Shown here piece by piece: positions 5,552 to 20,648 of a DNA stretch of 64,000 nucleotides. Position numbers and translations under genes: made by a program. This stretch comes from Algicola sp. GTDB lineage: Bacteria > Bacteroidota > Bacteroidia > Flavobacteriales > Flavobacteriaceae. The notes under the pieces are model-generated. The model had not been told where the DNA came from, ran no database searches, and was given only the letters and a program-made list of their open reading frames with translations. The stretch lies in the NCBI GenBank assembly GCA_018222835.1, contig JAAEZN010000006.1:1-64000 (forward strand), written 5' to 3'. Every line of letters starts with the position of its first letter. The first letter of the stretch is position 1.

Positions 5552-5670
5552 ACTTGTTGGATGTGGTCGGTGGACTTAAATCCCATGTCTTAAAAGAAAG
5601 CTTTGGCAGGTAAATTGCAGATAGTTGTTTAAAACTGTAACATTGTTGTACCATTAAAGTCTAATATCAC

Positions 5671-6189
5671 ATGAAAAACCTGAAAAATGCAAAAATCCTG
5701 ATATTGCCTTTGGCAATGCTGTTGTTTTTGTCTTTCTCGACCGCACATAAATTTTACGTCAGCGTTACCAATATAGAGTACGCAGAGGACAATAAGGCCT
5801 TTCAGATTACCAGTCGTGTTTTTATCGATGATCTCGATAAACTTCTTTCCGAACGTTATGGCATCCAAGCCAAATTGGCTACTCCAGAAGAGTCTAAATT
5901 GGCCAATGAGTACATTGAAAAATATTTCCGGTCAAAATTTGTGGTGGCCCTCAATGGAAAACCGGTAAAATATACCTTTTTGGGAAAAAGATACGATACA
6001 GATGTGGCCATCTGTTATTTAGAGATTCCTAATGTAAATTTAACAGAGGTCAAAACCATGTCGGTCCAAAACGAGGTGCTAACGGATTTGTTCGAAGAAC
6101 AGAAAAACGTAGTGCACATTAAGTGGGAAGGAAACAAGAAAAGTTTTGTATTGATTAAGGAGAACAATAAAGGAATGTTAAACTTATGA
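5671..6189 (+). CDS. DUF6702-type exported protein
   Basis: This 172-residue protein has a hydrophobic export segment at about 8-25 (ILILPLAMLLFLSFSTAH) followed directly by HKFYVSVTNIEY. That start, with IFIDDLDKLL-like sequence about 30 residues later, is typical of the small family I know as DUF6702, usually found in flavobacteria beside M1 aminopeptidases. No catalytic residues are evident. The M1 peptidase gene begins 61 bases downstream on the same strand, so the two are probably co-transcribed and the protein may serve the peptidase. The family name is from memory; the fold and role are not established by the sequence. Confidence 0.68.
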   Translation: MKNLKNAKILILPLAMLLFLSFSTAHKFYVSVTNIEYAEDNKAFQITSRVFIDDLDKLLSERYGIQAKLATPEESKLANEYIEKYFRSKFVVALNGKPVKYTFLGKRYDTDVAICYLEIPNVNLTEVKTMSVQNEVLTDLFEEQKNVVHIKWEGNKKSFVLIKENNKGMLNL

Positions 6190-8926: not shown

Positions 8927-9499
8927 ATGTTGGAGAAACTGCTCAAATGGGATAGGGATACTTTTGTTTATCTCAATGGTTTGGGCATAGAAAAGTACGA
9001 CTTGTTTTGGGCCACGGTCACCCAATTCACCACTTGGATTCCCCTTTTTATTCTATTTGTGATATTGTTTTACCTCAACTTTCCAAAGAAAGAGGCACTG
9101 CATAAATTTTTGACCGTCTTGGGATTGGTGGTTTTTATCGCCCTGATCACGCATTTTACGAAAATTTCAGTAGCAAGGTTAAGACCCAACAATACCGAAG
9201 AAATCAATTCCCTTATCCGAATACTTAAAACTCCAACGGATTTTAGTTTTTTCTCGGGTCATGCATCAAGTTCATTTTCCATAACCACTTTAATGTTTCT
9301 GTTTCTGAGAAAAAAAGTGAAATGGGCCATACTGTTCTTTATTTGGCCACTACTGTTTACGGCGAGCCGTATTTACGTTGGCGTGCACTATCCTTTCGAT
9401 ATTTTGGTAGGTACCATAGTGGGCGTATCCAGCGGAACGCTCTTCTTTTGGCTATACCAACGCTTTATCGCACCCGGCTCAAGGTCAGTCCATCCCTAA
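8927..9499 (+). CDS. PAP2-family membrane phosphatase
   Basis: This 190-residue protein has several membrane helices and all three parts of the PAP2 signature: KISVARLRP at 79-87, SGHAS at 110-114, and SRIYVGVHYPFD at 147-158 with the catalytic histidines in parts two and three. PAP2 enzymes dephosphorylate lipid phosphates such as undecaprenyl pyrophosphate or phosphatidic acid, with the active site facing the periplasm. With cdsA, psd and lpxK elsewhere in the window an envelope-lipid role is plausible, but the substrate cannot be told. It starts 5 bases after tatA. Its last 35 bases overlap the convergent methyltransferase gene, so the tail is antisense to that gene's end. Confidence 0.88.
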   Translation: MLEKLLKWDRDTFVYLNGLGIEKYDLFWATVTQFTTWIPLFILFVILFYLNFPKKEALHKFLTVLGLVVFIALITHFTKISVARLRPNNTEEINSLIRILKTPTDFSFFSGHASSSFSITTLMFLFLRKKVKWAILFFIWPLLFTASRIYVGVHYPFDILVGTIVGVSSGTLFFWLYQRFIAPGSRSVHP

Positions 9500-18190: not shown

Positions 18191-18739
18191 ATGAGTTCAA
18201 AAAAAGGAAAAGTTCAGGAATTGATCCAAGAAAAACTGTTAGAAGACCGCAAAGTGTTTTTGTGGGGACAAGTAGATAATGATTCTGCCAAGCATGTAAT
18301 CGATAGGCTACTGTATTTGGATATGTTGAACAATGATGAAATCCAATTGATTATCAATAGCCCGGGAGGATACGTAACTTCTGGATTTGCTATTTACGAT
18401 ACCATTAAACAGATTAAAAGCCCGGTATCTACCGTTTGTTCCGGATTGGCGGCCTCTATGGGTTCCATTCTTTTGTCGGTAGGTGAAAAAGGAAGGAGGT
18501 TTATTCAGCCCCATGCCCGTGTAATGATCCACCAACCGAGTGGAGGAGCAAGAGGGCAGGCATCTAATATCGAGATTCAAGCCAGAGAGATTATAAAGAC
18601 AAAGGAGTTGGGTGCCAAAATATTGGCGGAAAACTGCGGACAGTCTTACGATAAGGTAATGAAAGATTTTGATCGTGATTACTGGATGGGCGCAGAGGAG
18701 TCTGTGGAGTACGGTATCGTGGACGAAATCTTGAAATAA
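18191..18739 (+). CDS. clpP: ATP-dependent Clp protease proteolytic subunit (ClpP), probably a paralog
   Basis: This 182-residue protein has the full Clp catalytic triad: Ser89 in GLAASMG, His114 in IHQPSGG, and Asp163 in DRDYWM. It lacks the longer N-terminus (about 15-35 residues) of the main flavobacterial ClpP, and no tig or clpX gene lies next to it, so I take it to be a second copy. It would form a 14-subunit barrel fed by an AAA+ unfoldase such as ClpX or ClpA/C. It is 76 bases after the MscS gene. An exact TATTTTTG -7 box at 18162-18169 suggests it also has its own promoter. A strong terminator follows. Confidence 0.9.
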   Translation: MSSKKGKVQELIQEKLLEDRKVFLWGQVDNDSAKHVIDRLLYLDMLNNDEIQLIINSPGGYVTSGFAIYDTIKQIKSPVSTVCSGLAASMGSILLSVGEKGRRFIQPHARVMIHQPSGGARGQASNIEIQAREIIKTKELGAKILAENCGQSYDKVMKDFDRDYWMGAEESVEYGIVDEILK

Positions 18740-18760
18740 GTCAACACGTTTAAAAAGTGA

Positions 18761-18796
18761 AAAGTCCTTCGCAACGTATTGTGAAGGACTTTTTAT
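18761..18796 (+). terminator. Rho-independent terminator after clpP
   Basis: A near-perfect hairpin, AAAGTCCTTCGCAA / TTGTGAAGGACTTT (stem arms 18761-18774 and 18779-18792, one G-T pair, loop CGTA), runs into TTTTATAT. It can also serve the opposite strand weakly. Confidence 0.9.
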
Positions 18797-18914
18797 ATAT
18801 AGGCGCCGAAGCGGAATATTTTAAATATATACGGCAACAAAGGTGCCAATAGATCTTAAAGGCTTGTTAAAATCAGAATAACTCGGGATTCGATATAATT
18901 TTTTGTGCCCTATC

Positions 18915-19165
18915 CTACAGCTCCTTTAGTTCTTCCTTATTTTTCTTTTCCAGTAAACTTAGCATCATAGACATGCGTTGATTATCCTTGAAAAATGTTT
19001 TTTTCTCTTCTAAGAAATTCCAGTATAGCAAATTGAACGGACGGGAATTCTCTCCTGTTATTTAGTATGGCTGTAAGTGCATTCTTTACGGTAATCGTCT
19101 TTTTCTTCTTTGGCAAACGGGGCAAAACTTGGTGGGTAAATGTTTTTTTTGAAGTGTCGATCCAA
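18915..19165 (-). pseudogene. Eroded remnant of a DUF2256 gene fused by deletion to the tail of an iron-sulfur photolyase-like (DPRP) gene
   Basis: Reading the minus strand, 18915-19062 encodes ITGENSRPFNLLYWNFL and then FFKDNQRMSMMLSLL up to a TAG. This matches the C-terminus of the photolyase-related protein family (DPRP, PhrB type), whose members have TGExACPFNxLYWxFL and NPRMxMMY. One frame over and just upstream is DDYRKECTYSHTK, the place of the family's YCxxC motif. Two of the expected 4Fe-4S cysteines read as Arg (both CGT, one base from TGT). Farther upstream, in a third frame, KKHLPTKFCPVCQR matches the start of DUF2256 (LPxKxCPVCxRPF). The main body of the photolyase (about 440 residues) is absent. 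Three frames, a stop and two lost ligands show this is a decayed gene. Confidence 0.62.
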
Positions 19166-19301
19166 TCAAAAATTTTTAATAAAAAACACAAAAAAACCAA
19201 ACAAAATAATTTGACATTGGATGAAACGTATTAATTGGAACTGTTAAAGGTCAAAATGCTTATTTTTACTATTTAATCAGAATTTGGCCCAATGGGCATT
19301 T

Positions 19302-20648
19302 ATGGTACAGACTCCAAAAAATATAGCCATCATCGGTTCTGGATTGGTGGGCTCATTGTTAGCGATTTACCTCCGAAAAATTGGACATCAGGTTACAGTT
19401 TTTGATAGGAGACCGGATATTAGGACAATCAAATTCTCAGGAAGGTCAATTAACTTGGCTATGAGTAACAGGGGCTGGCGCTCCCTCGATGCGGTAGGTA
19501 TTGGTGAAAAAATCAAGGATATTGCCATTCCGTTGGATAAACGGGCCATGCATGTGAACGATAAACCTGTGTATTTTCAAAAATATGGAAAGGAAGGGGA
19601 GGCCATTTGGTCCATCTCTCGCGGTATTTTGAACAAACGGATGATTGATTTGGCCGAAGAAGCAGGAGCGGTGTTCAGGTTCGACGAAAAAGTTTGGGAT
19701 GTTAACCTGCCCGAAGCCAAAATTTATACTGGTGAAACCGAAAAAGGAGAATGGACAGAATATCAGTTTGACATTATTTTTGGTTGTGATGGTGCTTTTT
19801 CCAGAGTACGCCATAAAATGCAACGCCGAAGCAGGTTTGACTATTCACAAGATTTTATAGATGTAGGGTATAAGGAACTAACCATTCCCGCCAATGAGGA
19901 CGGAAGCCATAAACTGGATAAGAATTCTTTTCATATTTGGCCAAGGGGCGAGTTTATGCTTATTGCCATGCCCAATATCGACGGCAGTTTTACCTGTACC
20001 CTGTTCTTACCGTTCGAAGGAGACGTTTCTTTTGAAAGTTTAACCACTGTAGAAGATGCGAAGGCGTTTTTTAAGGAATATTTTCCCAATGTACGCAAGG
20101 AAATCGAGAACCTTACCAAGGATTTTTTCCAAAACCCGACCAGTGCCATGGTAACTATGAAGTGTTATCCATGGACCTATTGGAACAAAGTTGCGCTAGT
20201 GGGTGATTCTGCCCACGCCATTGTGCCTTTTTATGGCCAGGGAATGAATGCCGGTTTTGAGGATATCTTCATTCTCAACGAACTTATGGAAAAGTACGGG
20301 GACGATTGGGACATGATTTTTTCTGAATACCAAAAGGAGCGCAAACCCAATGCGGATGCTATTGCAGAGCTCAGTTATAGAAACTTTATGGAAATGAGCA
20401 GTAAAACTGCCGACCCTAAGTTTTTGCTACAGAAAAAAATTGAAAAACATTTTGCGGCCCTACATCCGGAGAAATGGATTCCCGTCTATAGCAGGGTCAC
20501 ATTTTCGGATAAACCCTATGCTGAGGCCCTGGCCATTGGAGATATGCAGGAAGCTATTATGAAACAAGTGATGCAATTGCCCGATATTGAAGAAAAGTGG
20601 GACTCCAAAGAAGTAGAGGAGATGATTCTGGGGTTATTGAGCAATTAA
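19302..20648 (+). CDS. kmo: Kynurenine 3-monooxygenase
   Basis: I prefer the ATG at 19302 (448 residues) to one at 19284, because the conserved N-terminus (MVQTPKNIAIIGSG) begins there. KMO is an FAD enzyme that uses NADPH and O2 to convert kynurenine to 3-hydroxykynurenine. Seen here: the dinucleotide fold GSGLVGSLLAIYLRKIGH (12-29) with FDRRP, the RSINLAMSNRG segment, and the FAD ribityl motif VGDSAHAIVPFYGQGMNAG (300-318) with GD at 301-302. The product is the substrate of kynureninase at 10695, so the window carries two steps from tryptophan toward NAD precursors. It is transcribed alone and followed by a terminator shared with the minus-strand gene. Confidence 0.93.
   Translation: MVQTPKNIAIIGSGLVGSLLAIYLRKIGHQVTVFDRRPDIRTIKFSGRSINLAMSNRGWRSLDAVGIGEKIKDIAIPLDKRAMHVNDKPVYFQKYGKEGEAIWSISRGILNKRMIDLAEEAGAVFRFDEKVWDVNLPEAKIYTGETEKGEWTEYQFDIIFGCDGAFSRVRHKMQRRSRFDYSQDFIDVGYKELTIPANEDGSHKLDKNSFHIWPRGEFMLIAMPNIDGSFTCTLFLPFEGDVSFESLTTVEDAKAFFKEYFPNVRKEIENLTKDFFQNPTSAMVTMKCYPWTYWNKVALVGDSAHAIVPFYGQGMNAGFEDIFILNELMEKYGDDWDMIFSEYQKERKPNADAIAELSYRNFMEMSSKTADPKFLLQKKIEKHFAALHPEKWIPVYSRVTFSDKPYAEALAIGDMQEAIMKQVMQLPDIEEKWDSKEVEEMILGLLSN

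Follow-up and report, generated by a model that had tools for sequence, protein, structure and literature searches.

The interval between clpP and the KMO gene of Algicola sp., as read in the window (the whole stretch of 64,000 nucleotides that was analysed), carries on its minus strand short pieces that resemble a protein of the family DUF2256 and an iron-sulfur photolyase (DPRP). This raises the question of whether the pieces are the remains of a larger gene set, how they came to lie side by side, and what their association may say about DUF2256. The first-pass annotation had recorded three motifs in three different frames, a DUF2256 start (KKHLPTKFCPVCQR, within 19107-19151), the DPRP cysteine area (DDYRKECTYSHTK, spanning 19099-19061) and the DPRP C-terminus (ITGENSRPFNLLYWNF, running downstream to a TAG at 18915-18917). 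All of them are present on the minus strand and their coordinates are right, but the frames number two, the DUF2256 start and the DPRP tail sharing one and DDYRKEC lying in another. The features of the site are listed below.

18191-18739, plus strand: clpP, the intact convergent neighbour of the remnant.
18751-18796, strand not given: hairpin with flanking runs of A and T, nearly identical in the three relatives aligned.
18873-19096, minus strand: 3' remnant of DPRP (FeS-BCP photolyase), its last 74 codons with the ancestral stop at 18873-18875, one base short, by alignment to congeners.
18915-18917, minus strand: premature TAG, which is CAG in G061 (sequence and alignment).
19041-19043, minus strand: CGT (Arg) at the cysteine equivalent to Cys454 of PhrB, TGT in G061 (alignment).
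19058-19062, minus strand: one-base frameshift in the DPRP remnant, placed by alignment.
19079-19081, minus strand: TGC, a kept cysteine equivalent to Cys441 of PhrB (alignment).
19088-19090, minus strand: CGT (Arg) at the cysteine equivalent to Cys438 of PhrB, TGT in G061 (alignment).
19097-19106, minus strand: deletion junction, A-rich and not placeable to the base, with about 2.69 kb missing relative to G061.
19107-19160, minus strand: 5' remnant of DUF2256, 18 codons, its start codon reading TCG (80% identity to intact DUF2256 over 15 residues; collinear DNA match to G061).
19172-19204, minus strand: decayed putative operator, TTGTTTGG-N17-TTAAAAAT where a dyad TTGTTTAA-N16-TTAAACAA is expected, the best match in the KMO-DUF2256 interval.
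19311-20648 (the range used as query), plus strand: KMO gene, the intact divergent neighbour of the remnant.

Similarity to both families, for which the annotation had proposed a tblastn check, was found when 41 short clpP-KMO intervals were searched: the DPRP of an intact congener matched the window over residues 450-510 (72% identity, E 6.6e-16) and intact congeneric DUF2256 over residues 1-15 (80% identity, E 1.2e-5), in the expected order and on the expected strand, and the window was the sole interval matched. At the DNA level, the G061 interval aligned with 85.3% identity over 340 bp on the clpP side (E 3.6e-109) and 81.1% over 206 bp on the KMO side (E 1.9e-49). The DUF2256 scrap, whose first 18 codons read through to CPVCQR, scores higher for DUF2256 than any other place of the host genome (17.7 bits, E 0.019; next place 16.3 bits), yet stays under the PF10013 cut-off of 25 bits and covers model positions 1-15 only; because its own profile score is weak, its weight rests on position and synteny. 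A DNA search of relatives gave five strong matches, which are DPRP tails, and a weaker sixth in G008, most other matches being noise (among them those that every one of the 59 genomes gave at E up to 1). Chance similarity was ruled out by the DNA and protein alignments, on which the remnant is confirmed as real. An assembly artefact was also considered and is improbable, as a chimeric join would leave the stop, the frameshift, the cysteine changes, the loss of the start and the decay of the dyad unexplained.

The nature of the ancestral gene set was revealed by the clpP-KMO sites of congeners. Twenty-five of the 67 congeneric sites, including those of G018 and G061, are intact (3.25-3.93 kb), two (G003 and G023; about 2.4 kb) hold DUF2256 and cry-DASH but no DPRP, another 39 (238-485 bp) are empty, and the window stands on its own at 574 bp. 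At the intact sites the gene order is DUF2256 - cry-DASH - DPRP, divergent from KMO and convergent with clpP. The comparison of this interval in relatives, as the annotation had suggested it, thus did find intact DUF2256 and DPRP in 25 congeners, but no direct pair; its view that the two had been adjacent in an ancestor fails at these sites, where a complete cry-DASH lies between them and three genes are affected. In G018 the middle gene is a complete cry-DASH (TIGR02765, 503 bits, cut-off 317) and the third is a DPRP (PF04244, 266 bits, cut-off 22); the latter matches the PDB chains 4dja and 5kcm (PhrB), 3zxs (cryptochrome B) and 7ykn (FeS-BCP) with E 1e-110 to 1e-160, in agreement with the FeS-BCP/DPRP photolyases PhrB of Agrobacterium and CryB of Rhodobacter. 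The Cys2-Cys3-Cys4 pattern is kept in all eight congeners aligned, and DUF2256 passes the PF10013 cut-off in 23 of the 59 genomes searched, relatives scoring 67-81 bits. The empty sites retain just the outer bases and the hairpin stretch; not one of the 39 gave a tblastn match to DUF2256 or DPRP at E up to 0.05.

G061, whose operon is intact, is the nearest congener in the comparison both by KMO (96% identity) and by the tree, which was built with FastTree from partial clpP, KMO and MscS sequence, rooted at the midpoint, and covers 67 of the 71 genomes of the genus (G006, G029 and G090 gave no KMO match and G067 has a distant KMO homologue; the second KMO place of G093 was omitted). Assuming a single gain of the operon, this tree needs 14 loss clades, a count that could fall with recombination at the flanks. 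Some congeners deviate in other ways. In G006, DPRP adjoins clpP and part of cry-DASH lies at the contig end. Four genomes (G024, G019, G031 and G033) have no operon between clpP and KMO and carry elsewhere a DPRP of a second type (about 33% identical), with DUF2256 immediately upstream of it; G003 and G023 have a DPRP of this second type on another contig and one DUF2256 match per genome. Eight congeneric loci have an additional gene between the dyad and DUF2256. In G075 (L151:5947-6636) it is flavin-reductase-like (PF01613), and in the other seven (G003, G004, G023, G027, G062, G072 and G089) the same is deduced from an equal gap of about 785 bp and similar sequence.

Alignment with G061 allowed the losses in the window to be traced. 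The clpP-KMO interval measures 3261 bp in G061 and about 571-574 bp in the window, and the missing 2.69 kb or so comprise the end of DUF2256, the whole cry-DASH gene and about 436 codons of DPRP, which bears out the earlier proposal that a large deletion fused the DUF2256 start to the DPRP end at a cost of some 440 DPRP residues, with drift afterwards. Beyond the deletion, the disabling changes are the loss of the start codon (TCG at 19158-19160 in the window, where G061 and most of the close congeners have TTG), the frameshift, the stop, two Cys-to-Arg codons and the decayed putative operator. The TAG at 18915, which the annotation had located correctly and read as the end of the DPRP C-terminus, is premature, since homology continues past it to the ancestral stop. 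Two cluster cysteines do read CGT, as the annotation had it, and a third (TGC) is kept; in PhrB the four cluster cysteines are 350, 438, 441 and 454 (PMC3204975), and the first falls in the deleted part, so that the window keeps one of the four. Compared with its intact relatives, the DPRP of the window has its last 74 codons only, two of the three remaining cluster cysteines having become Arg; DUF2256 (PF10013) keeps codons 1-18 and has lost its WRKKW core and second cysteine pair; and cry-DASH (TIGR02765), the middle gene of the intact operon, is absent. No match to the PF04244 domain was found anywhere in the host genome even at E 10, and no cry-DASH in a search at E 1e-70. Differences between the window and G061 fall mostly at third codon positions (15/75, 4/75 and 28/74 at first, second and third), a pattern similar to that between pairs of intact copies, which indicates constraint for most of the divergence and hence a recent loss.

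In congeners, then, the intact operon occupies the site, and the window retains only its two outer ends, with a coding remnant disabled in several ways and an eroded upstream dyad. We hold it to be almost certain that this is a decaying DUF2256 - cry-DASH - DPRP operon between KMO and clpP, i.e., the ruin of a DNA-repair operon at a fixed site. One deletion of about 2.7 kb would have taken out the middle after the split from the G061 lineage; the position of the ends, next to the KMO promoter and the clpP terminator, may explain their survival, and the host may have tolerated the loss thanks to another photolyase gene that it has elsewhere behind a dyad of this type.

The evidence does not fix the number of deletion steps. 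Cry-DASH or DPRP could have gone first, with a later deletion fusing the remaining ends, and G003 and G023, which have DUF2256 and cry-DASH without DPRP at the site, attest to such partial states; both, however, are far from the window on the tree, the nearest relative compared is fully intact, and a single deletion of about 2.69 kb covers the entire length difference, which makes a loss in several steps unlikely. Much less credible still, to the point of being very improbable, is that the remnant has been kept for a function of its own (a regulatory RNA, a part of the KMO promoter or the clpP terminator) and is not mere decay. Its likeness to G061 (81% over the 206 bp on the KMO side, 85% over the 340 bp next to clpP) and the near identity of the clpP-adjoining hairpin in the aligned relatives would suit such a role, but the 39 empty sites manage without any DUF2256 or DPRP scrap detectable by tblastn at E up to 0.05, and the DPRP scrap has acquired a stop, a frameshift and cysteine losses. 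The hairpin stretch itself (window 18751-18796) is conserved in congeners both with and without the operon; judging from its sequence, it is likely a common, bidirectional terminator of clpP and the convergent operon.

On the KMO side, the dyad TTGTTTAA-N16-TTAAACAA was recovered, with 0-3 mismatches as best match, in all 27 congeneric loci that keep DUF2256 at the site, 93-112 bp from the KMO position used and within the KMO-DUF2256 interval (spacer 16 in 26 loci and 17 in one); the best match in the window has 4 mismatches and a spacer of 17. The strict pattern occurs within 130 bp before DUF2256 in 17 of the 27, the other ten being two degenerate copies and eight loci in which another gene precedes DUF2256. 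Searched in five genomes, the pattern gave 3-8 matches (palindromic sites counted on both strands; 2-5 distinct sites) versus 0-1 for the reversed control. In the host, sites are found at G000:C46:25288-25318 and G000:C76:23174-23205 (TTGTTTAA-N15/16-TTAAACA). The dyad precedes there a three-gene set (a first gene with no Pfam match, an SDR and an open photolyase of 437 aa with PF00875 and PF03441, whose best NCBIfam models are CPD photolyases, under their cut-offs), and it also lies between an nth-like gene (203 bits, just under the 212 of TIGR01083) and a peroxiredoxin gene. In G061 a dyad (C1:238015) precedes a fasciclin-domain gene (PF02469), and sequence similarity indicates genes of this kind in G018 and G076. 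The genes behind the dyad likely form a small stress regulon in this genus, and the dyad may be a light-stress operator. A light-stress setting would fit with Vibrio cholerae, in which operons containing photolyase and cry-DASH genes are induced by blue light (PMC5241685), DUF2256 not being named in the passages of that account that were covered. Among the matches listed for TTGTTTAA in the literature, none was on this subject, as judged by title and beginning of abstract.

The annotation had also supposed that the pairing could point to the role of DUF2256, and this idea was strengthened by DUF2256-DPRP adjacency elsewhere and by co-occurrence when the two lie far apart. In a sample of 392 genomes of the phylum, 126 have DUF2256, 138 DPRP and 102 a cry-DASH over cut-off (the number of first-look candidates scored per genome was limited, with a ceiling of 18 for DUF2256, and a few genes may have escaped detection). 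DUF2256 and DPRP were found together in 114, DUF2256 alone in 12, DPRP alone in 24 and neither in 242 (odds ratio 96, p 1.5e-59); by genus (n = 179) the corresponding counts are 57/7/15/100 (p 1e-24). The Fisher p-values assume that genomes are independent, which counting by genus corrects only in part. For DUF2256 and cry-DASH the counts are 91/35/11/255. The DUF2256-DPRP association holds in genomes lacking cry-DASH (28/7/15/240, p 9e-22) and is not significant in those with it (86/5/9/2, p 0.16, a test with little power); since cry-DASH co-occurs with both, the true partner of DUF2256 is not cleanly separated.

Within 3 kb of a DPRP or cry-DASH lie 71 of the 126 DUF2256 genes, and 17 of the 114 genomes holding both have DUF2256 directly adjacent to DPRP (less than 400 bp between family matches). 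Of the 39 pairs in which DPRP is closer than 2 kb, 38 have DUF2256 upstream on the same strand, as do 37 of the 46 pairs in which cry-DASH is closer than 600 bp. Another 75 of the genomes holding DUF2256 and DPRP have the two on different contigs or separated by more than 3 kb (cry-DASH is the near gene in 32 of them), which speaks for a functional tie beyond a common position. Beyond this sample, 51 of 80 named DUF2256 loci from several phyla (the best 80 of 587, hence top-scoring and not random) have a photolyase-family gene in the flank, 50 of them within 3 kb; the flanking sequence of the other 29 showed none, and the 15 of these that were run against Pfam had mixed neighbours (gene calls were a simple greedy pick that may misplace neighbours in GC-rich genomes). 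DPRP was present in 36 of 46 DUF2256-bearing genomes, hand-picked from these 80 loci and mainly outside Bacteroidota, versus 93 of 299 in a sample of the phylum to which Marinobacter belongs, a rough comparison because the 46 span several phyla, the 299 represent a single one, and one of the 46 is among the 299. Exceptions weigh against the association: 12 of 126 genomes have DUF2256 and no DPRP (two of these matches being weak), and 24 of 138 have DPRP and no DUF2256, which, like Haloferax volcanii with its DPRP match and no DUF2256 match, speaks against a strict need. Caulobacter vibrioides and Synechococcus elongatus have matches to both families. In a Psychrobacter sp. locus (L174), three DUF2256-like copies lie within 4 kb (5607-5729, 6010-6138 and 9128-9223), with no photolyase gene in the flank examined and no DPRP match in the genome. 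No fusion of DUF2256 to a photolyase was seen downstream of DUF2256 in 100 loci (41-72 residues from match start to stop). Within the literature searched for DUF2256 and COG4338, nothing linked either to photolyases, and no mention of DUF2256 was found in the portions covered of the literature on FeS-BCP operons, LitR/MerR, cry-DASH operons and Dokdonia.

What kind of protein DUF2256 may be was approached through its conserved positions and a predicted structure. Ten positions are invariant in 58 diverse members, including four cysteines, W22, R23, W26 and W30, and in the predicted model (pLDDT 84, pTM 0.51) a helix accompanies two short strands, as would be the case in a treble-clef finger. 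The top Foldseek match of the model is YacG (whose older name is DUF329) bound to gyrase, with E 0.49, and VIA-align places the FCS zinc finger 2w0t first (Z 2.8) and YacG at Z 2.4, all below significance. YacG is also the second commonest Pfam match of DUF2256 (33 of 58 members, best E 0.0027, below threshold), the first member reaching 16.6 bits against the 25.5 of the PF03884 profile. A search by sequence for a solved relative gave none that was convincing (best E 0.08, ribosomal L24). The likeness to the YacG gyrase inhibitor and FCS-type fingers is thus weak, all matches being under accepted thresholds, and DUF2256 differs from them in its own invariant WRxxW core. DUF2256 and DUF329 have been listed with FCS fingers in one metal-binding superfamily (PMC4047054).

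Taken with the co-occurrence, this suggests that DUF2256 would be a small, putatively zinc-binding, YacG-like accessory protein of FeS-BCP and cry-DASH photolyases, which perhaps binds the enzyme or damaged DNA. Only tentatively, and with somewhat less than even confidence, do we propose the more specific role of a dedicated, YacG-like zinc-finger partner of iron-sulfur photolyases (and cry-DASH) that may load, protect or target these enzymes on damaged DNA, the window then representing a lineage that is discarding enzyme and partner together. It is also quite possible, if a little short of probable, that DUF2256 simply rides along with a broader set of light or oxidative-stress genes and has no direct tie to photolyases. 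In favour of this, the dyad also precedes other stress genes, DPRP and cry-DASH themselves tend to occur together, and 29 of the 80 named loci (the best of 587) have no photolyase gene in the flank examined. Photolyase-family genes are, however, the only recurrent neighbours found, and the co-occurrence persists in the 75 genomes in which DUF2256 and DPRP are unlinked, both of which speak against this reading.

The pseudogene itself is ordinary, one more case of gene loss, and its value lies in the association of DUF2256 with photolyases that was reached through it. The co-occurrence with FeS-BCP photolyases throughout a phylum, the usual upstream place of DUF2256 when the genes are close and its weak resemblance to YacG turn a family of 'unknown function' into one for which a testable question can now be put, namely whether a photolyase needs DUF2256, and the common dyad hints at a regulon for light or oxidative stress in this genus, a proposal equally open to test.
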